Source: Bacteroidota bacterium (lineage in GTDB: Bacteria; Bacteroidota; Bacteroidia; Bacteroidales; NBLH01). From it: 64,000 nucleotides of DNA. The notes under the pieces are model-generated. The model worked only from the letters and a program-made list of their open reading frames with translations, was not told the DNA's origin and made no database searches. The position numbers were made by a program, and so were the translations under genes. Positions 14,942-29,217 of this stretch are shown here, piece by piece; the stretch's first letter is position 1, and the number at the start of each line of letters is the position of its first letter. The stretch covers positions 62,001 to 126,000 of the forward strand of contig JANYKN010000126.1 in NCBI GenBank assembly GCA_025361565.1. Reading direction: 5' to 3'.

Positions 14942-15102
14942 ATGGGTCAGAATACACAGATTATTCTCAAACGTTTTGATTATTCTGTTTCATTAAGTAG
15001 GCTACAGAATGGTTTAAAAGACCAAACCTTAGTTGTAATCTGGAATTTGTGCAGGAGCTTTTAATTTTGGCTGAATACAATCAAAAACTAACAATTAAAA
15101 TT

Positions 15103-17058
15103 ATGAAAAATAAAATAAGATTTGCTGGATTGACCGCCATTTTAGTATTGTTGAGTGTAATTATGACATTTTTTACAAGGTGTAAAGTAGATAATTCAGA
15201 GAACAATCCTTTGCCACAACCGGTGCATATCCCAGGAAAACCCGGGGCGCTGAAAATAAATGTTTCATCTTTGATTTTGCATCCAGGTGATAATCCTCAA
15301 CTAATAGCTACACTTTATAACGCCGATGGGACTCTTTCTTCATCCACACAATCCTTGATTTGGCAATCTTCGAATAATACAATTGCTTCTGTTTCAAATG
15401 GTATCGTCACAGCTAATACTTTAGGATTTTGCGAAATTAATGTAACTGATGGAGTTCATGGCATTTTAAGGACAAATGTTTCAGTGGTAGCAAGCGGTAT
15501 CCCCATTTCAACAAAACCAACAACTATAAGTTGGCCTCTTAATGCAGATATGCTGATTTTGAAACAAAATACAATGGAAACTGTAAGTAGTTACACAATT
15601 TATAATGCTTCTGGACAAGTGGTTCAATCTCCTGCTTTAACTTTTATACCAGATTCAAAAAGCAACCTAAGCTTTACAGGAAACAATATTAATTCGGGGG
15701 ACATAACAGGCAGCTTTGAAGTAATGGTAAAATCTGGCAATGATACCTTGCTTAATACATTGAAAGTATTGGTATTAAATACAGTAGATACTTTAACAAC
15801 AATTTCTGCTATACCAAATTGCCCTTATTTTTTCCCATATTATAATGTTTCAGCGGAGCCATTGATTATTCAGGTAACTAAAGCTTGGATAGGTTCTTCA
15901 GGCTTTCAAATGAATTTATTTACAACTTCACCAACCGCAATTATAATAGATCAACCTTCTGTAGCCATTGTTAATAGCGCAGGTCTCATTACTTCTGTTG
16001 GACCGGGAAATTCAAAAGTTAAAGTAGAATATAATACGGCTTCAGTGGAGGGATATATTTTTGTTGATTATGATTTTACCGGCAGTTGGGGTGGAACTGC
16101 CGCTAATGGAGATAATTACAACTTTTGTTTTGACAGAGAAAACCCTGATGTTTTTTATCGATATAATATAGCCAGATATGAATATGGATTTTGGGAAGGA
16201 GGTTATATTGGTGGTTTATACGAAAATGGAAATGCCAAAATTGTTAAAAATGGAATCAAAGACCCTCTCAATAAAGTAGTCATTTATTCTTTTCCAGGAA
16301 TTGGCAAAGCAAATGAACCACTTGAAGATACAGAAGATTTATGGTTTTGTCAATTTTATACGAATGGGCTTACAGGAGGAACTTTCCTTTGGCAAAATGA
16401 TTTAGATAAGATGAAATTTGTTGACGGCAACAATACAGTTGTTTTAACCCGAGGTGAAGGTGATTGTAAAGGAGGAGGGATATTAATAAGTAAAATGACT
16501 GATAAGTTATTAGATAACCCAACTTTTGTCACAACTTTTCAATATGACGATAACGGAAGAGTAACGGCGTATAAGGACAGCGTAATCAATGAACCAGGTT
16601 CTGATGTAACTACCTTTGAATATCCGAATTCAACAACAGTTATTGAAAAAGGTGGATCGGATGTAAATACTTACACATTAAATGAAAAAGGACAAGCAAT
16701 ACAAGTTGTAATGACAGGATCTGTTACCGACATATACTATTATACTTATGATATCAATGGTTTTAACGAAGACGGGGATATATTGGTTGTAGAAAATGGA
16801 AATGTTGTAAAAAGTGGCAATACTAGCTATGAATTTGATTTGACTAAAATAAATACCATTGGGAGTAAGAACATGGGATTTGGATTTTTTGGAAATGATA
16901 ATAAAAATCTTATAACAACAAAAAATTTCGATACTAGTATATTTGTAATTACTTATGAATTTGATTCGAAAGGCAGGGTATCTAAGGAAACTTATAGTGA
17001 ACAAATAGATGGCGAAGCTAATGAAGTAGAAGTCTTTACTTATAGCTATACCGATTAA
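15103..17058 (+). CDS. Large lipoprotein with BIG2-like domain and C-terminal YD-type repeat domain
   Basis: This is a 651-residue lipoprotein. After an N-terminal hydrophobic segment and the likely lipobox FFTRC (about residues 23-27) comes a bacterial Ig-like (BIG2-type) domain at about 35-120. A mixed beta region with another Ig-like segment lies around 250-325. A C-terminal domain (about 475-651) is made of tyrosine-rich strands such as EYPNSTTVIEKGG and YTYDINGF, ending FTYSYTD. That C-terminal domain resembles DUF4595-type YD repeats and is shared, with near-identical motifs, with the lipoproteins at 26531 and 27499. I start at 15103 because MKNKIRFAG begins the signal; the ORF could open upstream. 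Function is unknown, probably surface-exposed. Confidence 0.8.
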   Translation: MKNKIRFAGLTAILVLLSVIMTFFTRCKVDNSENNPLPQPVHIPGKPGALKINVSSLILHPGDNPQLIATLYNADGTLSSSTQSLIWQSSNNTIASVSNGIVTANTLGFCEINVTDGVHGILRTNVSVVASGIPISTKPTTISWPLNADMLILKQNTMETVSSYTIYNASGQVVQSPALTFIPDSKSNLSFTGNNINSGDITGSFEVMVKSGNDTLLNTLKVLVLNTVDTLTTISAIPNCPYFFPYYNVSAEPLIIQVTKAWIGSSGFQMNLFTTSPTAIIIDQPSVAIVNSAGLITSVGPGNSKVKVEYNTASVEGYIFVDYDFTGSWGGTAANGDNYNFCFDRENPDVFYRYNIARYEYGFWEGGYIGGLYENGNAKIVKNGIKDPLNKVVIYSFPGIGKANEPLEDTEDLWFCQFYTNGLTGGTFLWQNDLDKMKFVDGNNTVVLTRGEGDCKGGGILISKMTDKLLDNPTFVTTFQYDDNGRVTAYKDSVINEPGSDVTTFEYPNSTTVIEKGGSDVNTYTLNEKGQAIQVVMTGSVTDIYYYTYDINGFNEDGDILVVENGNVVKSGNTSYEFDLTKINTIGSKNMGFGFFGNDNKNLITTKNFDTSIFVITYEFDSKGRVSKETYSEQIDGEANEVEVFTYSYTD

Positions 17059-17337: not shown

Positions 17338-17380
17338 AAATTCAGATAATACGGAGACTGTTTTTTTACATTTAATTTTT

Positions 17381-17728
17381 CGTTGGGCAAGCTTCCCCGG
17401 AAACTGATTCATCCAATTCTTCGTTGGGCAAGCTTTCCCGGAAACTGATTCATCCAATTCTTCGTTGGGCAAGCTTCCCCGGAAATCGGTTCATCCAAAT
17501 TCTTCGTTGGGCAAGCTCCCCCGGAAATCGGTTCATCCAATTCTACTTTGGGCAAGCTGTCCCGAAAACAGATTTAACAAATCCTGCCTAGGGCAAGCTC
17601 TCCCAGAAACCATTTCATCCAATTTTTCTTTGGGCAAGCTCGCCAATAAACCGATTCATCCAATTCTTCTTTGGGCAAACTCGCCTTGAAAGTGATTCAT
17701 GCGATTCTTCGTTGGGCAAGCCCGCCAG
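17381..17728. repeat. Tandem array of nine 41-bp units (minisatellite)
   Basis: The unit begins TTGGGCAAGCT and continues CCCCGGAAAC and GATTCATCCAATTCTTC. Unit starts are at 17383, 17424, 17465, 17507, 17548, 17589, 17630, 17671 and 17712, so the period is 41 bp with a single 42. The first units are nearly identical and later units diverge. There are no unique spacers between copies. Confidence 0.9.
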
Positions 17729-18988: not shown

Positions 18989-19783
18989 TCAATAAATCCC
19001 AAGCATTCTGCAATACACAATCAACGCAGTTGTATTAACACAATTTGTCATTTCGAGCATATTCCGTCGGTGAGTATCTACCGTATGTGGGCTAATGAAC
19101 AAAAGATCTGCTATTTGCACGCTGCTTAATCCACGGGCAAGTAGTTGTAACAAAGTTATCTCCCGCTCACTAAACGAACCAAAATCTGTGACAGTTTTGC
19201 TGTAATCATTGAATTTATAAAAAAGCACTTTACCATCCGGCATTTTTATTGCAAGTGTACCATCCTCCTTCTTTTTAAGATAAGTAATATCAGAAAATAA
19301 ATTTATCGAAAATAACGGATTGTAATTAATATCAGCCTTAAAAGTCTTCATATGCTGTAACATTCTGAAATAATAAGGAGTATTTTCAGCAAGTTTATAA
19401 TTAAAATCAAAAAACGCTTCAACTTTTAATCGTTCTCTGGTTATAATACTTCTTGTTGCATTTGCTATGATTGTGCGATGACCTAGCACCAAAAAGTCCA
19501 CCAAATGTTTTGGTATTTGTTGATGGGAATAATTAAAACCTTCACGAATAAATTTATGAGCTGAATGATTGAATCCACGAGATATTATTTCTAAATTAAC
19601 ATGCTCAATTCTTAATTCAACTGCATTAGTAATGGTGGAACCCTGCTTGTTTTGTTTACACATCCGTTCATAAAACTCCAAATCAGCAGGCATACCAAAT
19701 TTAGGAACAACCAAATCCTGATTGATGCTTTTCCAGTTTTCAAGGAAATCTTTGCGCGATTCACCAATATAGATGGTTTTCAA
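18989..19783 (-). CDS. LuxR-type transcriptional regulator (intact copy)
   Basis: This 264-residue regulator has an N-terminal domain of about 180 residues that looks PAS-like but has no recognised ligand. A LuxR/NarL helix-turn-helix (about 198-262) follows, with FSEREITLLQLLARGLSS, QIADLLFISPHTVDTHRRNM and the closing ALIVYCRMLGIY. There is no receiver domain, so it is not a typical two-component regulator. A second, closely similar copy with a stop mutation lies immediately upstream at 19934-20725. Both begin MKTIYIGESRKDFLENWKSI and share the same upstream flank. It may control neighbouring surface-protein genes, but nothing in the sequence proves this. Confidence 0.9.
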   Translation of the reverse strand: MKTIYIGESRKDFLENWKSINQDLVVPKFGMPADLEFYERMCKQNKQGSTITNAVELRIEHVNLEIISRGFNHSAHKFIREGFNYSHQQIPKHLVDFLVLGHRTIIANATRSIITRERLKVEAFFDFNYKLAENTPYYFRMLQHMKTFKADINYNPLFSINLFSDITYLKKKEDGTLAIKMPDGKVLFYKFNDYSKTVTDFGSFSEREITLLQLLARGLSSVQIADLLFISPHTVDTHRRNMLEMTNCVNTTALIVYCRMLGIY

Positions 19784-19933
19784 AGCTAGGTTCTATGTTA
19801 GTTAATTTAATTATCAGTATTTTCCTATAATAACTCTGCGTTCCTTTGCGCCTACTTTGGGGTTCTTTGCGTTTAAATTTGAACCGCTGAGAACCGCAGT
19901 GACAAAGTCACCCCCTGAATGTTTAAACCCATT

Positions 19934-20188
19934 TCAATAAATCCCAAGCATCCTGCAATACACAATCAAAGCGGTTGTGTCAGCACAATTGGTTATTTCA
20001 AGCATATTCCTGCGGTGTGTATCTACCGTATGAGGGCTGATAAACATAATATCTGCTATTTGCCTGCTGCTTAATCCCTGGGATAGCAATTGTAATAAAG
20101 AGACTTCACGCTCGCTAAGCGAACCAAAATCTGTAAATGTATTGCTACAAACATTGAATTTATAAAAAAGTATTTTACCATCAGGCAT
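19934..20188 (-). pseudogene. LuxR-type regulator copy B, C-terminal fragment with HTH
   Basis: These 84 codons hold the DNA-binding part of the broken copy: LSEREVSLLQLLSQGLSS and the helix-turn-helix HTVDTHRRNM, ending in the same ALIVYCRMLGIY as copy A. It stays in the same frame as the N-terminal fragment (20240-20725); only a TGA at 20240-20242 intervenes. An ATG at 20186-20188 could in principle restart translation and give a bare DNA-binding domain. Nothing shows that it does. Confidence 0.75.
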
Positions 20189-20239
20189 TTTAATGGCAAG
20201 CGTACAATCGTCTTTCTTTTTAAGATAAGTAATATCGGA

Positions 20240-20725
20240 TCAAATATTAATAACAAATAATGGCTTGTTGTTTTTGTCAGCCTCAAAAATCTTAATATGT
20301 TGGAACATCCTGAAATATTCCGGTTCATTTTCAGCCAGTTTATAGCCGTAATCCACAAACGCTTCAACTTTTAAACGTTCTTCGGGCTTGCATTTATTAA
20401 CTGTTTCTGACATAATCAGGCGATAACCTATAACAAAGTGGTGGTTTTCTTTTGGTATCTGATTCCAGGAATAATTAAACCCATCATTCAAAAATTTAGA
20501 CGAAGAGTGTTTAAAATAATTCGCAATTCCAACCAAATTAACATATTCCATTTTTAATTCAGCCACATTGGAAATAAACAAACCAAGCTTTTTCTGCATG
20601 GCCATTTTTTCGTAAAACCTCAAATTCTGACACAAACCAAATTTAGGAACAACCAAATCCCGGTTGATGCTTTTCCAGTTTTCAAGGAAATCTTTGCGCG
20701 ATTCACCAATATAAATGGTTTTCAA
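20240..20725 (-). pseudogene. LuxR-type regulator copy B, N-terminal fragment (stop mutation)
   Basis: These 161 codons match the N-terminal sensory part of copy A (18989-19783). At 20240-20242 the codon is TGA where copy A has TTT (Phe) in the stretch SINLFSDITYL. The reading frame continues intact behind it, with no indel, so a single nonsense change splits the gene. The fragment would lack the DNA-binding domain. Confidence 0.8.
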
Positions 20726-20881
20726 AGCTAGGTTCTATGTTAGTTAATTTAATTATCGGTATTTTCTATAATAACTCTGCGTTTCTTTGCGCCTGCTTTG
20801 CGCCTGCTTTGCGGTTCTTTGCGTTTAAATTTTAACCGCCGAGAACCGCAGAGTTTTAGCAGAGAACCGCAAAGTCATATT

Positions 20882-21739
20882 TTATTGACCTATAAATTGT
20901 TCCAAAAGGGTGTTAATAACTTCAGGATTCTCCAAATGCGGATAATGCCCTGCATTTTCAACCACTTGTATTTTATTGCGCCATAGCGTAGGTATTTCCT
21001 GCCTTTCAAGGTAATCTATGCTAATGAATGGGTCATTTTTTCCTTCAACTATAGCTACCGGTAATTTGGTAGAACGGAGAAATTGCTTGTGCCCAACATA
21101 AAACTGAGGGTTGGCAATAGATGTAACAATACCGGTCCGCAACAATGGATCGGTAATTTCCAAGCCTTCAATTACAGATGCTACTTCCTGATGGTTAGGA
21201 TTGTAAAAACCAGCTTTGGCTAGTGCTTCACGTTCCGTTGCACTTAAATTTTGCTGATAAAAAAGCCCCATGATTGGGTTTGGCAATGCAGCCTGGGCCA
21301 ATTCTTCGGCCTTATCAACCAACAAAAGACCGGAAAGAAAAAATCCTTTTATGTGCGAGGAATCCTTAAGCACAGCATACAATGCAGCATTTGAACCCAA
21401 CGAATGGCCAACCAACCAGCAAGGTGTATTGAGCGAACCAATGACTTCCAGAACCAATTGTGATAAACCTTCAAAGCTATATGTTTTTTGAGGTTCGTTG
21501 GCGAAGGCAGAATTTCCACAACCCGGAAAATCAAAAGCCACCAGGTGATGTTTTTTCCCAAAATCACTTAAAAGTTGGTTTTTAAAGTTTCCGGCATTTG
21601 ATGAATTGCCATGTACCATTAGAACGGTTTCACCTTTGCCTGAGCTTTCGTAAAAAGCAATTTTTTGTCCTGCAATCTCTTTATAATATGAAGGTTGCAG
21701 GTCCTTCATTTTAAGATTTTCATTTTCGGATGTTTTCAA
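20882..21739 (-). CDS. Alpha/beta hydrolase
   Basis: This 285-residue cytoplasmic hydrolase has a complete Ser-His-Asp triad. The oxyanion segment HGNSS is at 43-47, the nucleophile elbow GHSLGS has Ser113, Asp236 lies in GKNDPF, and His265 lies in AGHYPH. The lid region is at about 150-210. The fold is that of esterases, haloperoxidase-like and epoxide-hydrolase-like enzymes, and no substrate can be inferred. An internal ATG (21709) could be the true start because MKDLQPSYYK begins the conserved part. The gene lies directly upstream of the duplicated LuxR-type genes in the same orientation. A possible link between hydrolase and regulator is only inference. Confidence 0.88.
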   Translation of the reverse strand: MKTSENENLKMKDLQPSYYKEIAGQKIAFYESSGKGETVLMVHGNSSNAGNFKNQLLSDFGKKHHLVAFDFPGCGNSAFANEPQKTYSFEGLSQLVLEVIGSLNTPCWLVGHSLGSNAALYAVLKDSSHIKGFFLSGLLLVDKAEELAQAALPNPIMGLFYQQNLSATEREALAKAGFYNPNHQEVASVIEGLEITDPLLRTGIVTSIANPQFYVGHKQFLRSTKLPVAIVEGKNDPFISIDYLERQEIPTLWRNKIQVVENAGHYPHLENPEVINTLLEQFIGQ

Positions 21740-22185
21740 AACAGCTAATTTTAGAAGGTGACAAATATTGATTTTTTAATTTTAAGCATTAAAAAATACT
21801 CAAACTGAGTATTGTCAGTAAAATCATTTAACTACACTTTTGCCTTAACAATTAGGATGAACTCACAGTGGAATTGTAAAATTTTTAGATAGCATATCTA
21901 AAGGTGAAATTACTATGACCATCTATGAACTTATGTAAATACGTTGATAAAGATAAAAGAATAACTGAAAAATCAAAATTTACTTATCCAGATTGGAACC
22001 TGATTTTTTGAACAAACACGCCGCTTTGATTAACCGTGATCCTTATGGGGTCAGGCTTTACGCATGCTATATTTTTGATTTGGCCTGAAATTATTATTTA
22101 GAAAGCTGAATTGGGAGTAGGAAAAGTGTGGGTAGAAATGTAGAATAATCATCAATACAGAAATTCTTAAATATTATTTATAAAT
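21740..22185. other. Divergent intergenic region with the palindromic promoter module
   Basis: This is 446 nt between the hydrolase (minus) and the large T9SS cargo (plus). It carries the promoter/operator at 21795-21842. The predicted transcript leader from about 21849 to 22185 is some 337 nt and contains no recognised gene. Weak minus-strand -7-like sequence CAAATATT (21762-21769) might serve the hydrolase. Confidence 0.5.
21795..21842 (+). promoter_or_regulatory. Palindromic operator overlapping a promoter, copy 1
   Basis: The palindrome AATACTCA-AAC-TGAGTATT lies at 21795-21813, and its right end forms the -33 TTG (21812-21814). A 20-nt spacer leads to CACTTTTG (21835-21842), a -7 element close to TAnnTTTG. 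The same 19-bp palindrome and identical spacing recur at 26258-26305. A dimeric regulator binding here would directly affect RNA polymerase. Confidence 0.7.
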
Positions 22186-25100
22186 ATGAAAAAACGACAA
22201 CTATTTTTCACGCTCCTGCTAATAACGGCATTGAGTTTTTACAGTGCAAAAGCTCAGTACACTAAGGTATATGACTTTATGGGCGGCGCAGCATTTACTG
22301 GTTCAAACCCACAGTATGACCAGAATTTAATTTCCGATGGCACTTATTTGTATGGAATGACATATACAGGGGGCGTAAATAATCAAGGGACTGTGTTCAA
22401 AATAAAAATCAATGACAATACCTATACCAAAATATTGGACTTTTCAACAGTTACAAATGGAAGCACTCCTCTTGGCTCCCTTATTTCTGACGGTACTTAT
22501 CTTTATGGTTTGGCTTTCGGTGGGGGCTCTACCGGTGCTGGGACTGCATTCAAAATAAAAATCAGCGATAATTCGTTCACCAAAATATTGGACTTTAATT
22601 GGACAAATGGAGGAAATCCTTATGGTTCTTTTATTTCCGATGGTACTTATCTTTATGGAACAACACGAACTGGAGGTACAAATAATGGAGGAACAGTATT
22701 TAAAATAAAAATAAGCGACAATTCGTACACTAAAATATTCGACTTCGCATGGACACCAGGTGCTTATCCTCAAGGTTCTCTTATTTCCGATGGCACTTAT
22801 CTATATGGCATGACTCATGATGGGGGCATTAACGGTGTAGGAACTGCGTTCAAAATAAAAATAAGCGACAATAGCTTTACCAAAATATTGGATTTTGAAA
22901 GTGCTGCAAACGGTGCTAATCCTATGAGTTCTCTAGTTTCTGATGGTATTTATCTATATGGTATGGCACAGAATGGCGGCACAAATAGTGCGGGAACAGC
23001 ATTCAAAATAAAAATAAGCGATAATACTTATACCAAAATGTTGGATTTTACAGGTTCAAATGGAATTTATCCTTATGGTTCTCTTGTTTCTGATGGTCCT
23101 TATCTATATGGTATGACTCACGATGGGGGCACTTTCGGTGTGGGAACAACCTTCAAAATTAATATTAGCGATAATTCTTATACCAAAATTTTGGACTTTA
23201 CAGGTACTACCAATGGAAGTAGACCTTTTGGTTCCCTTATTTCTGATGGCACTTATCTATATAGCATGACACAAACTGGAGGTACAAACAATTTGGGAAC
23301 CGTGTTCAAAATAAAAATAAGCGATAATTCATACATCAAAATATTGGATTTTGGAGGAAATGCTCCAAATGGCAGTAGTCCTAATGGTTCCATTATTTCC
23401 GATGGTACTTATCTATATGGCATGGCACAAACTGGAGGTACAAACAATTTGGGAACTGCGTTCAAAATAAAAATAAGCGACAATACCTACACCAAAATAT
23501 TGGATTTTGCTGGTACTGCCAACGGAAGTTATCCAAATGGCTCTCTTTTTTCCGATGGTACTTTTCTGTATGGTATGACATATGGTGGAGGGATAAATAA
23601 TGTGGGAACAATATTTAAATTAAAAATCATCGACAATAGCTATACCAAAATATTGGATTTTGCAGGTGCTGCAAATGGAAGTAATCCTTATGGCTCTCTT
23701 ATTTCCGATGGTACTTATCTATATGGAATGACAAGAGTCGGGGGAACAAATAATTTGGGAACTGTATTTAAGATAAAAATCAGTGATAATGCGTACACTA
23801 AAATATTGGATTTTGTCGGAACTTTAAACGGAAGTTATCCTACAGGTTCTCTAATTTCAGATGGTGCTTATCTTTATGGTCTGACAAGTAATGGTGGCAC
23901 AAGCGGTTATGGAACCTCATTTAAAATAAAAATCAGCGATAATTCGTATACCAAAATATTTGACTTTACCGGAATAGCAAACGGAATAGGTCCTTATGGT
24001 TCTCTTGTTTCTGATGGTACTTATCTTTACGGAATGACACAGCAAGGAGGTACAAACAATATGGGAAACACATTTAAAATAAAAATTAGCGACAACACCT
24101 TTACCAAAACATTTGACTTTGCCGTTGCTGCAAACGGAGGTTATCCTTTGGGCTCTCTAATTTCTGATGGTACTTATTTATATGGAATCACACCTAATCG
24201 AGGCACAAATGATATGGGAACATTATTTAAACTAAAAATCAGCGATAACACTTTTACCAAATTGATGGACTTTGCAGGTGCTACCAGCGGAAGTAATCCA
24301 TCTTACACACAATTAATAATAAACGGGTCTTTTTTATATGGAATGACACCTAACGGAGGTATTTCAAATTTGGGTACTGTTTATAAATACCAAATTTATT
24401 ATCCCGAAATTAATGTAAAACAAGGTGTAGCAAACATACTCGACAATACCGGAACTTTTGATTTTGGCAGCGTAGATGCAGGCACTCCACAAACCATAAC
24501 TTTTACTGTTGAAAATCTTGGAATAGATGCCTTACATATAACTGGTACACCCAAAGTAGTGGTTTCGGGCACAGGTTTTACATTAGCCAGCGATGCCCCT
24601 GCAACCATTAATGCTACAGGAGCTGCAACTTTCCAGGTTACATTTACACCCAATGCAGGCGGTGCATTCAATGGCACAATCAGTATCGACAATGATGATG
24701 CCGACGAAAACCCTTACAATTTTGCAATAACTGGCACAGGCGTAAAGCTGGACCAAGCCATTTCATTCAGCGCATTAAGCACAAAAACCTATGGCGATGC
24801 TCCTTTTACCGTTTCCGCAACAGGCGGTGGCTCAGGCAACCCGGTTTTTTTTACCAGTCAGGATAATACCATTGCCACTTGCACAGGCACAAATGGCGAA
24901 ACCATCACAATTTTAAAAGCAGGTACAGTTAAAATTTATGCCAACCAGGCAGGCAATGCAAGTTATAATGAGGCAGCACAAGCTGAACAAACGCTGACAA
25001 TCAATGCCATGCCAATAACAGTTACAGCAAATACCAGCCAAAGCAAGGTTTATGGAAATACCGACCCAGCATTTACATATGGCGTATCACCAGCTTTGGT

Positions 25101-26004
25101 AAGCGGTGATGCTTTTTCAGGCTCACTGAGCCGTGCAACTGGTGAGGGAGTTGGTTCATATTCCATCATTCAGGGTACTTTGGATGCAGGGTCCAATTAT
25201 AGCATCACATTTGTTGGCGACAATTTTGCAGTAACAGCCAAAACTTTGAGCATAGACGGTGTAACTGCCGGCAACAAAGAATACGACGGAACAATCTCTG
25301 CAATTTTGACAGGCGGAAGCTTAACAGGCGTCATAAACAGCGATGTGGTTGATTTAAATGCAGGTACGGGTTCGTTTTTGGACGCAAACGTTGGAACAGG
25401 AAAAACGGTTACCGCTTCAAACTATACCATTTCGGGAAAAGGCGCAGTGAACTATTCCGTGGCACAACCAACAGGACTTACTGCTGATATAACCGCAGCC
25501 ACTCCAACAATAACCTGGAACAACCCAGTTGATATAAAAAGCGGTACAGCCTTGAGCGCAACCCAGTTAAATGCAACGGCCAATGTTCCCGGTACTTTTG
25601 TTTATACGCCAGCTTCAGGAACAGTTTTAAGCGTAGGTGCCATCCAAGATCTGAAAGCAGACTTTACACCAACCGATGCCACTAATTATAATACGGCAAG
25701 CAAAACGGTACAGATCAATGTTACCCAGTCTACCGGATTTGTGGAGCTGGCTGAGAACAGTGTTTCAATTTTTCCAAACCCTGCAAGTAATATCGTTTCA
25801 ATTTCGGGATTGTCTGCCTTTGCATCAAGCAAAAACATTCAAATGTTGGTTGTTGATATCCATGGCAAAACCATGCTTTCAAAAACAATCAAAAACACAA
25901 GCGAAAAGGAAATGCTTGATATAAGTTCGCTAGCAAAAGGGATCTATTTTGTCCATCTGCAAACGGACACGGAAAGGATTGTGAAACGGATAGTTAAGGA
26001 ATAA
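22186..26004 (+). CDS. T9SS-secreted repeat protein (Gloeo_Verruco repeats, MBG/YDG domains, sorting domain)
   Basis: This is a 1272-residue exported protein. A signal peptide (1-24) is followed by 14 tandem repeats of about 50 residues (about 45-735). Each repeat carries SDGTYLYGM, then [17 protein letters not shown] and YTKILDF; this is the TIGR03803 type and forms a beta-propeller-like array. Then come a choice-of-anchor/HYDIN-like domain (about 745-855), MBG and YDG-type beta domains (about 858-1115), and an Ig-like domain (about 1120-1190). Last is a type IX secretion C-terminal sorting domain (about 1200-1272) starting [10 protein letters not shown]. It is therefore moved by T9SS and anchored or released at the surface. 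The Ig-like domain is closely repeated in the lipoprotein at 26531. An operator-promoter module precedes it. Confidence 0.92.
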
Positions 26005-26031
26005 GAAGAAAAGCAAGTATTGGAATTGAAT

Positions 26032-26074
26032 CAAAACCCCTGAATTTTAAAAGTTTAGGGGTTTTGTTTGTTTT
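26032..26074 (+). terminator. Terminator after the T9SS cargo gene
   Basis: CAAAACCCCT (26032-26041) pairs with AGGGGTTTTG (26057-26066), with a T-rich tail TTTGTTTT. It lies 28 nt behind the stop. Confidence 0.8.
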
Positions 26075-26154
26075 AATCAATATGTCCATGCGGTTAAGAC
26101 TAGAATTGAATCCATTCAATAAGTTGAAAGCCCTTGAAGCGGTTGAGCAGGAAC

Positions 26155-26184
26155 CACTTCGAGGATATCTAATCGCTCGAAGTG
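26155..26184. repeat. CTTCGAG/CTCGAAG inverted-repeat element, copy 2
   Basis: Perfect 9-bp arms CACTTCGAG (26155-26163) and CTCGAAGTG (26176-26184) flank a 12-nt loop. It belongs to the family also found at 9497, 28283 and 34158. Confidence 0.7.
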
Positions 26185-26257
26185 TTCATGAATTCAAAAG
26201 ACATTCAATTTCCAAATAACTTTGATATTGAATTATTTGTAAAATTTATCATCTAAA

Positions 26258-26305
26258 AATACTCAAACTGAGTATTGACCATGAATTGATTTCACCTCAC
26301 CTTTG
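26258..26305 (+). promoter_or_regulatory. Palindromic operator overlapping a promoter, copy 2
   Basis: The palindrome at 26258-26276 is identical to the one at 21795-21813. Its end gives the TTG at 26275-26277, followed by a 20-nt spacer and CACCTTTG at 26298-26305. The sequence outside these elements differs between the two copies, so the palindrome and promoter boxes are conserved in their own right rather than by recent duplication. Confidence 0.72.
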
Positions 26306-26530
26306 TAATAACAAATTGAAATAGCTCCAGGTGGTAATGTATCGTTTGTAAATAAGTTGTCTAAAAAGCAAAATATGCATTACTCACCGAAGAGTTTATC
26401 CAAATTGCATTTATGCAGCCTAAATAAATAGTGAGGAATCAATGCTACAAAACCGTCAATGATTTGATTTTTAACATATATGCCACCTTATTATACTTAA
26501 AATAATTAATTATTAACTAATACAAATTTT

Positions 26531-27433
26531 ATGAAAAAAGCAATTTTATTCACTTTTTTAGCAATGCTTACCATTGCAAGTTTTAATTCATGCACAAAAG
26601 ATCCTATAACACCAACAAAAAAAGATCCTGTAATTACCTGGACAAACCCTGTTGATATAACTAATGGAACTTTGCTTAGTGCTACACAACTCAATGCTAC
26701 AGCCGATGTACCAGGTACTTTTGTTTATACACCTGCACTTGGTACAAACCTAAGTGAAGGTGCTAATCAAAACCTAAAAGTTGATTTTACACCCTCGGAT
26801 GCTACAAGTTACAATACCGCGAGTAAAACAGTATCTATTAATGTAACAAAAAATGAGCTATTGGGTATTGCCAAAATAAAAACTGTTACTTATACAACCA
26901 CAGAGTATGTTGGCTATGAGGTCGACACTTATCAATATGATACTCAAGGAAGAGTTACAAGAGTCGATTTTACCGATGGAGTAGAAAATGATTTCGAAAC
27001 ATTTGAATATCCAAATTCAACAACAGTAATTGAAAAATGGGGATCGGATGCATATACTTACACATTAAATGCAACGGGACAAGCAATACAATATGTAGAA
27101 TCAGGCTCTAGTACAAACACTTATTATTATACCTATGATAGTGATGGTTTTATGAGTAATGGAAATTTTAGGGTTGTTGTAAATGGCAATATTGTTAGCG
27201 ATGGCGGTACTACCTATGAATATGATTTGACTAAAATAAATACCATTGGGGATAAGAACATGGGGCTGGGATTTTATGGAAATGACGACAAAAATCTTAT
27301 AACAAAAGAAACCAACGGTGCATACATAGTTACTTATACCTATGAATTTGATGCAAAAGGCAGGGTTTCAAAACAAACAGCTGACTATAGTGGTCTAAAC
27401 ACTGATTATTTGGTATTTACGTATACTGATTAA
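26531..27433 (+). CDS. Lipoprotein with Ig-like domain and YD-type C-terminal domain
   Basis: This is a 300-residue lipoprotein. The signal peptide MKKAILFTFLA ends in the lipobox FNSC (Cys about 22). Residues about 36-115 are an Ig-like domain ([32 protein letters not shown]) nearly identical in pattern to the penultimate domain of the T9SS cargo at 22186. Residues about 118-300 form the tyrosine-rich YD/DUF4595-like domain shared with the genes at 15103 and 27499. The promoter module at 26258-26305 drives it. The next gene begins 65 nt later with an almost identical signal peptide, so the two are likely cotranscribed tandem paralogues. Ligand and role are unknown; cell-surface location is likely. 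Confidence 0.82.
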   Translation: MKKAILFTFLAMLTIASFNSCTKDPITPTKKDPVITWTNPVDITNGTLLSATQLNATADVPGTFVYTPALGTNLSEGANQNLKVDFTPSDATSYNTASKTVSINVTKNELLGIAKIKTVTYTTTEYVGYEVDTYQYDTQGRVTRVDFTDGVENDFETFEYPNSTTVIEKWGSDAYTYTLNATGQAIQYVESGSSTNTYYYTYDSDGFMSNGNFRVVVNGNIVSDGGTTYEYDLTKINTIGDKNMGLGFYGNDDKNLITKETNGAYIVTYTYEFDAKGRVSKQTADYSGLNTDYLVFTYTD

Positions 27434-27498: not shown

Positions 27499-28197
27499 AT
27501 GAAAAAAGCAATTTTATTCACATTTTTAGCAATTATTACAATTGCAAGTTTTAATTCTTGTAAAAAGGATCCGGTTACTGCCCCCGTAGTGAATGATTTA
27601 TTGGGAATACCCAAAATAAAAACAACCAGTTATTCATATCCAGGTAATACTCCAAACCTCGAAACATTGCAATATGATGCCAATGGAAGAATAATACATG
27701 ATGAAAATAAAGAAAATGGCATATTAGCACGCTCCACATCGGTTGTATATCTAAATTCAACAACAATCACTTTGGTAAGTGTTGATTATCAGAACTCTCC
27801 TGCAACAACGGATACTTCTACAATAACATTAAATGATAAAGGACAGGCAATACATGAAGAATATTCTCCAACAGACAATTGGGATATTACTTATGATAGC
27901 AATGGTTTTATGGAAGATGGTGAAGTATTGGTTGTAGCGAATGGAAACGTTGTTAAACGTGGCACTGTTACCTATGAATTTAATTTAGATAAAACCAATA
28001 CGATAGGCTATAAGAACATGGGAATTGGATTTTATGGAAATGATGATAAAAATCTTGTAACAAAATGGACTGATGGAGCAGATATTCATACATTTACCTA
28101 TGAATTTGATTCGAAAGGTAGGGTTACCAAGCAAACAGAATTAAATCCAGCTGATGCAACTTATTACGAAATTTATTCTTATACCTATACCGATTAA
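27499..28197 (+). CDS. Lipoprotein with YD-type domain, paralogue
   Basis: This 232-residue lipoprotein starts with MKKAILFTFLA and the lipobox FNSC, as in the preceding gene, then goes directly into the YD/DUF4595-like domain (about 35-232). The Ig-like domain of its neighbour is absent. Conserved points are KTNTIGYKNMGIGFYGNDDK and a YTYTD ending. The 65-nt gap to the upstream gene contains sequence resembling that gene's own 5' flank, as expected from tandem duplication. Sequence after the stop also resembles the 3' flanks of the two paralogues. A decayed further copy of the N-terminus lies at 30119-30237. Confidence 0.82.
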   Translation: MKKAILFTFLAIITIASFNSCKKDPVTAPVVNDLLGIPKIKTTSYSYPGNTPNLETLQYDANGRIIHDENKENGILARSTSVVYLNSTTITLVSVDYQNSPATTDTSTITLNDKGQAIHEEYSPTDNWDITYDSNGFMEDGEVLVVANGNVVKRGTVTYEFNLDKTNTIGYKNMGIGFYGNDDKNLVTKWTDGADIHTFTYEFDSKGRVTKQTELNPADATYYEIYSYTYTD

Positions 28198-28551
28198 TCG
28201 TATTTGCAAAGGTATATCATTGTTTTTGAGTTAAGTATTTATTAAATCGTTTTGTAAGCTTATCTCATATGGTAATTTAACCCTTCGAGCGGTCGCTGAG
28301 CTTGTAGAAGTGCGGTCGGAGACACTCGAAGCGGTTAACCACTTCAATGGTTTTTAGCAGCTTGAAGGGAATCGCTTCCTGGCTTAAATAAGCTGACATT
28401 GAAATAAATATTGGCATCCATCGACAACTTAAAACATCAGTCACTCGAAAATCGAAAGAATACCTAAAACAAAGTGGCGACCAGAAACCACTTAAAAAAA
28501 CGGGGCGTATACTGAAAAGCCTTATGAGTAAGTAAACCTATACCTATTAAT
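28198..28551. other. Intergenic region after the lipoprotein paralogues
   Basis: These 354 nt hold the inverted-repeat element at 28283-28331 and short palindromic pieces around it. No gene or clear promoter was recognised; a TATACTGAAAAG stretch near 28508 is not a good match to the consensus. Confidence 0.4.
28283..28331. repeat. CTTCGAG/CTCGAAG inverted-repeat element, copy 3
   Basis: CTTCGAG (28283-28289) and CTCGAAG (28325-28331) flank a longer, 35-nt centre. Outer flanks TTAACC and GGTTAA extend the symmetry. The element follows the lipoprotein paralogue by about 85 nt. Confidence 0.65.
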
Positions 28552-29217
28552 ATGAAAAAAATCCTACTAATTAACTTCTTGATTTTATTTTCTGTGTTTC
28601 TCAACGCTCAAACAGTTACTGTTAGTGCATCAGAACCGGATGCAAAAATTATTGTTGATGGTCAGAATTTAGGAACAGGAACTTTAAAAGTTAAAGTGCC
28701 AAAAAATTCTTGTGTTACCGTTAAAATTCAGAAAACAGGGTTTTTAAAATATGAACAAACCTATTGTAATAAAAAGGATGGAACAGAACCACCTAAAAAA
28801 CAATATTTCGAAATGAAAAAAGATGATGCTGATGAAGCTTCAATAAAAACCGACCAGGCAAATGTTGACTTTTCACTTGAGATAAAAAAGGATTATGATG
28901 TTACAGAAGCATGGAAACTGACAAGCCAAATTGTAACCGACTATTTTGATGCAATTGAAGTTGCAGATAAAGAAACCACCTATTTAAGAACTGCTTGGAG
29001 TATTCAGGTTTTTGAACAAAATACAATTAGAACAAGGTTGATAATTAAATTAGGGAATTCAAATCCGCTTACCTACAAAATAAAGTTAGTAAGTGAATCA
29101 TCGGGTGTAACCGGAACAAGTGCCAAATCTGATGAACTATATCGTGAGTGGGACAGAGTTTTAAGGAAGTACCAAAATATTATCAGTGATTTTTCAACAC
29201 GTTTGGGCAATAAATAA
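28552..29217 (+). CDS. Exported protein with N-terminal PEGA-like domain
   Basis: This is a 221-residue exported protein. A signal peptide (1-20, ending LNAQ) precedes a PEGA-like beta domain (about 22-80), with SEPDAKIIVDGQNLGTGTL and a KTGFLKYEQTY segment typical of that surface-layer-type fold. The remaining part (about 95-221) is a mixed alpha/beta region of unknown family with YDVTEAWKLTSQIVTDYFD. No catalytic motif is visible. It lies in the secreted-protein island, alone in its transcription context. The PEGA call rests on the DAKIIVDG pattern and is moderate. Confidence 0.75.
   Translation: MKKILLINFLILFSVFLNAQTVTVSASEPDAKIIVDGQNLGTGTLKVKVPKNSCVTVKIQKTGFLKYEQTYCNKKDGTEPPKKQYFEMKKDDADEASIKTDQANVDFSLEIKKDYDVTEAWKLTSQIVTDYFDAIEVADKETTYLRTAWSIQVFEQNTIRTRLIIKLGNSNPLTYKIKLVSESSGVTGTSAKSDELYREWDRVLRKYQNIISDFSTRLGNK

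Follow-up and report, generated by a model that had tools for sequence, protein, structure and literature searches.

Introduction

VqmA of Vibrio cholerae, a quorum-sensing receptor with a PAS domain and a helix-turn-helix (HTH) domain, recognises a palindrome and activates a small RNA (sRNA) gene (PMC8284805). Here we describe a palindromic operator-promoter module that occurs twice in a 64,000-nucleotide stretch of DNA from a Bacteroidota bacterium of the order Bacteroidales (contig JANYKN010000126.1; hereafter the window), near two tandem genes, lux1 and lux2, for LuxR/GerE-type regulators. To our knowledge, few transcription-factor operators are known in the Bacteroidota, and searches of the openly licensed PMC literature found no description of this module. 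Regulators of the NarL/FixJ/GerE type bind inverted-repeat sites. We know of no operator or regulon for 3clo, a Bacteroides protein whose entry title reads putative transcriptional regulator, LuxR DNA-binding domain, and which was the best sequence match, over residues 78-244, of a Mangrovimonas regulator linked to the module. In the sigma-A promoter of the Bacteroidota (TTG/TAnnTTTG), the TAnnTTTG -7 box is reported to lie at -12 to -5 in Flavobacterium psychrophilum (PMC9723704).

The comparisons reported below suggest that the palindromes are probably class-II-type operators at which a homodimeric regulator of the LuxR/GerE type, the product of lux1 and, if that gene is functional, of lux2, would act as an activator. 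Our assessment rests mainly on the fixed 20-nt register (N20) of the promoter behind the palindrome, on the linkage to LuxR-type genes, and on the reciprocal match between lux1 and the linked regulators.

Two exact copies of the module in the window

The window holds two identical 19-bp palindromes, AATACTCA-AAC-TGAGTATT (Table 1), as a sequence-only reading of the window had described. The right arm runs into the TTG of a -33 element, and TTG-N20-CACTTTTG and TTG-N20-CACCTTTG stand exactly behind operators 1 and 2, respectively, both in the register TTG-N20-nAnnTTTG. The identical stretch common to both copies was 23 bp long (AAAAATACTCAAACTGAGTATTG), and TAACAA followed in both, 4 nt past the -7 box. 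The spacers between the -33 and -7 elements looked unrelated, in agreement with the same reading. Both palindromes matched AATACT(C/G)A-N3/4-T(G/C)AGTATT exactly and were of the C type with an N3 centre.

When up to three mismatches were allowed, the palindrome had two matches in the window, both exact, against 0.66 expected, and at least two such matches occurred in 16 of 100 shuffles of the window. The palindrome combined with the -7 box pattern also had two matches, and none in 100 window shuffles. The strength of the palindrome statistics lies in the exactness of the matches and in their promoter context.

Recurrence of the module in a fixed register beside LuxR-type genes

About 85,000 species genomes were scanned for TACTCA-N3-TGAGTATTG-N17..23-nAnnTTTG, with spacers of 17-23 nt allowed. 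The scan yielded 90 places, which, among the 80 titled loci (numbered with the prefix L below), were mostly from Flavobacteriaceae, with genera including Winogradskyella, Tamlana, Polaribacter, Bizionia, and Psychroserpens. The spacer was 20 nt in 86 of the 90 places; the four off-register places were L071, L074, L093, and L143, the first three of them titled as two archaea and Hassallia. At N20, the first base of the -7 box was most often C (46 of the 90 places), with G in 20 and T in 17, and it was C in both window copies. The module had the same type of -7 box as the sigma-A promoter (PMC9723704), whereas it differed from that promoter in the first base, mostly C or G, and in the fixed N20 to a palindrome.

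Of the 90 places, 78 had a lux1-like LuxR/GerE-type gene on the same strand that ended 1-290 bp upstream, with a median distance from stop codon to site of 11.5 bp and a distance within 20 bp in 60 of the 78. The 12 places lacking such a match comprised the four off-register ones, three cut by the edge of the stored locus (L077, L112, and L126; the LuxR gene of the L126 site was visible in L183), and five with no adjacent match (L064, L085, L094, L098, and L145). The recognition helix of the 78 linked regulators was DTHRRN in 75, NTHRRN in two, and DKHRRN in one. In an alignment of 29 linked regulators with lux1, all 30 had the GerE HTH, as in NarL/FixJ/GerE-type response regulators; unlike in that type, no receiver domain was found among the 25 of 32 families listed for the 30 proteins, and PAS_3 was present instead in 29 of them, lux1 being the exception. 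No receiver domain matched lux1 at an expectation value (E) up to 0.1.

A palindrome-only search covered 16 of the scan genomes, and 20 of the sites that it listed were examined. Eight of these sites (L179, L181, L183, L185, L187, L190, L191, and L195) were also scan places and so had been pre-selected for the promoter. TTTG or TTTA stood at exactly N20 on a strand in eight of the other 12 (L177, L182, L184, L186, L188, L189, L192, and L196) and in 16 of the 20 overall; across the 40 strands, the ten other offsets (15-19 and 21-25) accounted for 10 occurrences in total. By eye, lipoprotein or secreted genes lay behind 8 of the 16 N20 sites (L177, L179, L185, L186, L188, L189, L191, and L196), five of them among the eight not pre-selected, and several sites away from a regulator gene preceded such genes. 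The LuxR linkage and these sites supported the earlier proposal of a dimeric regulator with a small surface-protein regulon.

Within the Bacteroidales, a search of 393 genomes for the C-type palindrome gave matches in 20, the window's own included. At the 21 loci from other genomes (19 distinct one-mismatch sites), nAnnTTTG was found at N20 on neither strand; it occurred off register in L012 (N19), L015 (N16), and L025 (N21), and TTTG or TTTA alone stood at N20 in two of the 19 one-mismatch sites (L013 and L015). Taken alone, this search looked like chance.

Recognition helix and operator arms in Bacteroidales relatives

With lux1 as the query at E 1e-20, no relative was found in 384 Bacteroidales genomes except its own, and with the Mangrovimonas regulator at E 1e-12 relatives were found in 37 of the 384, the own genome included; judged by these protein matches, PAS-LuxR relatives are not rare in the order. 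Of the 36 matches outside the own genome, 29 loci, picked by protein alone, were examined. A variant palindrome, AATACTGA-N4-TCAGTATT, with at most two mismatches lay at the LuxR gene in 17 of the 29: in 14 it stood just ahead of the LuxR start, its promoter directed away from the gene, in two it came just after the stop codon (L264 and L274), and in one it overlapped the longest reading of the LuxR open reading frame (ORF; L260). An eighteenth match, in L279, lay 963 bp away from the gene and is left out of this count. The reversed pattern occurred in 0 of 29 loci, and 60 shuffled arms matched in no more than 1 of 29. None of the 29 contained the C-type N3 palindrome with at most two mismatches. 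The co-occurrence of the regulator family and the exact palindrome is thus not strict.

All 17 variant-bearing regulators had an NTHRQ helix, compared with 2 of the 12 others, and TTTG was in register at 15 of the 17 sites. The only DTHRR relative among the 29, in L277, had TACTCA-N4-TGAGTA 82 bp after its stop codon, then TACTTTTA in register, with a signal-peptide gene following. When 198 Bacteroidales genomes were searched for the variant module, 10 of them had a single match each, and the control matched once. Seven of the 10 were already among the 29 loci and three were new: in L291 an NTHRQ LuxR gene ended just before the variant site and a lipoprotein gene followed, one further case of the pair; L297 had TACTCA-N4-TGAGTATTG-N20-CACTTTTG before a signal-peptide gene; and L294 had TACTAA arms. 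As far as seen in these loci, the operator arms appear to vary with the helix, and the window pair of DTHRR and TACTCA would fit this pattern.

In L256, L263, and L276, the PAS-LuxR genes were divergent from probable TonB-receptor genes, with AATACTGA-N4-TCAGTATT between them; the products of the latter begin with a signal peptide followed by IT-QTIKGKV, a start that we take to indicate TonB-dependent receptors.

lux1 as the candidate regulator

Both lux1 and lux2 had the recognition helix DTHRRN and lay 1-3 kb from operator 1, not directly adjacent to it. The DTHRR helix was absent from 14 plus 4 other LuxR-like ORFs of this genome, the nearest being DTHRK in L230. Searched against 15 other genomes, lux1 had the operator-linked LuxR as its best match in 14; in the exception, G400, other LuxR-type proteins outscored it, best over the HTH only. 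In the reverse search, the two best matches of the Mangrovimonas LuxR in this genome were lux1 and lux2. In the genomes tested, these sequence comparisons make lux1 and the operator-linked regulators each other's best matches. The reciprocal match and the common DTHRR helix, not seen in 18 other ORFs, supported the suggestion of the sequence-only reading that the nearby LuxR-type genes are candidates. The in-frame TGA of lux2 may reflect a pseudogene or an assembly error.

Two copies of a repeat, 93% identical, were seen upstream of lux1 and lux2 (window 19844-19899 and 20796-20851), and the copy at 20796-20851 contains an inverted repeat that by eye is like a repetitive extragenic palindromic (REP) element.

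Proposed mode of action and alternative explanations

In the proposed circuit, a homodimer of lux1, and of lux2 if functional, would bind the palindromes 1-3 kb away and might sense a ligand or state through its N-terminal domain, which is PAS in relatives; the bound dimer would recruit RNA polymerase and switch on a repeat protein exported by the type IX secretion system (T9SS) and a lipoprotein pair. With the -7 box at -12 to -5, the dyad would be centred at about -43 and would overlap the -33 element, the position of a class-II activator. Activators that contact RNA polymerase over the -35 region usually sit at about -43, as in CRP- and LuxR-type class II promoters. Because the -7 boxes have C for the T of TAnnTTTG, the promoters should be weak until the dimer is bound, and the dyad position together with these degenerate boxes favours activation. 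The same operator and regulator might serve repression instead, with the dimer covering the -33 element and blocking RNA polymerase until a signal arrives. In the window, the TT of the -33 TTG does come from the right arm, and the scan places have the same overlap by construction; however, the first base of the -7 box was T in only 17 of 90 places, which fits promoters that need help, and the fold relative VqmA activates (PMC8284805). We therefore consider repression rather unlikely.

Several findings weigh against activation by lux1 and against the wider pattern from which it is inferred. The own assembly (6.76 Mb in 199 contigs, 98% complete) contained five sites for the palindrome alone with at most two mismatches, two exact and three others, against eight for the reversed control; besides the window pair it held no full module within two mismatches and one further match with three. 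The additional copies in promoter positions, whose lack the sequence-only reading had named as evidence against itself, were thus not found in the assembly search, and as far as the motif tells, the regulon in the own genome is at most two promoters. The lux1 protein was only 19-26% identical to the 29 aligned operator-linked regulators, a Pfam search found no PAS domain in it, and its structure model (predicted local distance difference test score, pLDDT, 62.6; predicted template-modelling score, pTM, 0.41) was too poor for a fold search or for judging whether a PAS fold is present. Its TTG start overlaps a TAGCTTTG, which leaves the start codon uncertain. Both lux genes are on the opposite strand, the hydrolase gene separates them from operator 1, and neither operator type was detected at lux1 or lux2. 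Most of the 78 linked places belong to a single bacterial family and do not count as independent events, and the G of the -33 element is present in the scan places by construction of the pattern. Among the Bacteroidales, 12 of the 29 loci had no variant at the LuxR gene although two of these were NTHRQ, the variant was first noticed in the same 29 loci, which makes the helix-operator correlation post hoc, and no LuxR gene was seen in the fetched stretch of L294 or L297. The lack of an operator at the lux genes, the intervening hydrolase gene, and the low identity of lux1 would also be expected if the operator belonged to another, unlinked regulator and lux1 and lux2 were bystanders. The reciprocal best match, the helix not seen in 18 other LuxR-like ORFs, and the LuxR linkage in 78 of 90 places elsewhere argue against this explanation, to which we give a small chance. 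Two further explanations were rejected. The A-tract before the palindrome, read on the minus strand as a T run after it, would suit an intrinsic terminator, or the palindrome might be a recombination or repeat element with an incidental likeness to a promoter; this is contradicted by the register, N20 at 86 of the 90 places and at 8 of the 12 sites not selected for the promoter, by the same orientation of both copies, and by the lack of a minus-strand gene end here, and appears scarcely tenable. The 80-residue module common to the neighbouring genes might suggest that a single promoter was recently duplicated in place and that both copies persisted by chance, but the copies have identical palindromes and boxes with unrelated-looking spacers and leaders, and the module is also present in other genomes, which makes such a duplication very improbable.

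A predicted small RNA and the likeness to VqmA-VqmR

In 66 places, a CTATTA-type start followed the -7 box, one of which (L057) was really an mRNA start. A stem of at least 6 pairs and a T run were present within 120 nt in 58 of the 66, against 1.7 expected after composition shuffles. By eye, the common core consisted of GCTATTA, then AGGGA, then a hairpin with genus-specific sequence, and the median length of the element was 80 nt by a rough rule. The element lies beside the PAS-LuxR genes (L058-L146; e.g. L076:2434-2509 and L070:1329-1404). From its sequence, the Flavobacteriaceae module is predicted to precede mostly a terminator-ended RNA of about 80 nt; behind other sites lie genes for lipoproteins, secreted proteins, or probable TonB receptors. 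The same CTATTA start was found in some mRNA leaders (L057, L177, and L186), and the window copies have TAACAA at about its position instead. An Rfam search of 10 of these loci gave three tRNAs only and no match to the element. RNAalifold on a MAFFT alignment of 32 of the 66 sequences gave no pairs and no covariation support, which we think is because the terminator stems differ between genera and were misaligned. Rfp18 of Flavobacterium psychrophilum, also a Flavobacteriaceae sRNA, was considered as the sRNA and judged different by description only, since it is described with a pairing region in a third stem-loop, whereas one terminator hairpin is seemingly present here (PMC9723704).

At Polaribacter-type loci (L061, L072, L077, L084, L131, and L134), TAnnTTTG was accompanied by a different, long-hairpin element that replaces GCTATTA, in L077 for example GGATTGGTT...AACCAATCC followed by a T run.

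A PAS and LuxR-type HTH regulator, a palindromic operator and, in Flavobacteriaceae, a predicted sRNA target are features like those of VqmA-VqmR. The Mangrovimonas regulator, whose model (pLDDT 83, pTM 0.79) was used for the fold search in place of lux1, had 3clo as its best predicted fold match in Foldseek, with VqmA chains (6kju and 6ugl) ranking right after it; only the HTH of 3clo matched lux1 of the window. On the other side, the whole-chain template-modelling scores with VqmA were low (about 0.31) and phmmer did not list VqmA. The VqmA operator in PvqmR is given as GG-N6-CC, in contrast to the AATACTCA arms in the window, and the targets in the window are protein genes, with no sRNA-like element found in either leader. 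By analogy, the Flavobacteriaceae circuit is predicted to work like VqmA-VqmR.

Tentatively, and with somewhat less than even confidence, we propose that the Bacteroidota carry a widespread design of the VqmA-VqmR kind, in which a DTHRR or NTHRQ helix would set TACTCA or TACTGA arms, respectively, at a fixed N20 promoter. In Flavobacteriaceae its target would be an undescribed sRNA about 80 nt long, elsewhere TonB receptors, lipoproteins, or secreted proteins, and the window would be a version rewired onto two surface-protein genes. One sequence signature would then tie a sensor-regulator family to its promoters, and the data suggest that the operator type may be predictable from the recognition helix. 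A conserved sRNA candidate, unrecognised by Rfam models in the loci searched, is flagged in marine Flavobacteriaceae, and what was a LuxR-type protein of unknown target becomes a testable circuit in cultured strains.

Genes and leaders behind the two palindromes

Table 1. Positions of the module and of neighbouring genes, counted from the first base of the window
Feature	Position	Strand	Basis
lux1, 264-aa LuxR/GerE-type regulator, proposed operator binder	18992..19783	-	family search + comparison
lux2, tandem copy (68% identity) with a single TGA in frame, codon 161 (window 20242)	19937..20722	-	comparison
alpha/beta-hydrolase gene, lies between lux2 and operator 1 and diverges from gene A	20882..21739	-	family search
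operator 1, palindrome AATACTCA-AAC-TGAGTATT	21795..21813	n/a	sequence reading + window scan
-33 element TTG of operator 1, TT part of the right arm	21812..21814	+	sequence
-7 element CACTTTTG, first base C not T	21835..21842	+	sequence + scan
leader of gene A, contains TAACAA (21846-21851)	21843..22185	+	sequence
gene A, 1272 aa, GloVer repeats, choice-of-anchor D, MBG_2, YDG, T9SS sorting tail	22186..26004	+	family search
intrinsic-terminator-like hairpin after gene A	26032..26066	+	terminator search
operator 2, identical palindrome	26258..26276	n/a	sequence reading + window scan
-33 element TTG of operator 2	26275..26277	+	sequence
-7 element CACCTTTG, operator 2 module	26298..26305	+	sequence + scan
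leader of gene B, contains TAACAA (26309-26314)	26306..26530	+	sequence
gene B, 300-aa putative lipoprotein, 80-residue module in common with gene A	26531..27433	+	by eye + comparison
gene C, 232 aa, paralogue of gene B that lies 65 bp behind it and may be cotranscribed	27499..28197	+	sequence comparison

The leaders of genes A and B measured 343 and 225 nt from the end of the -7 box, consistent with the lengths of about 337 and 219 nt given earlier if transcription starts a few bases later. No plus-strand terminator was found in either leader. The hairpin after gene A suggests that operator 2 probably starts its own transcription unit.

Gene A contains 14 GloVer (TIGR03803) repeats, periodic in the DNA at about 153 nt. 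The leader peptide of gene B was judged by eye to be of the lipoprotein type, and its product had no Pfam or NCBIfam match at E 0.001. The sequence-only reading had described both products as exported proteins sharing an Ig-like domain; export and the shared 80-residue module (75% identity) stood, and the name Ig-like was assigned to the shared part by no model. In six other genomes of the genus, no orthologue of gene B was found and only C-terminal parts of gene A were matched, so that a phylogenetic footprint was impossible there.

Elsewhere in the window, a 41-nt tandem repeat of 8.5 copies (17374-17721) was found downstream of a 669-aa ORF (15049-17058) that had no NCBIfam match. The Rfam family RF03081 (DUF805 RNA) matched with 70 bits at 28469-28538 on the plus strand, directly before a 221-aa gene at 28552.

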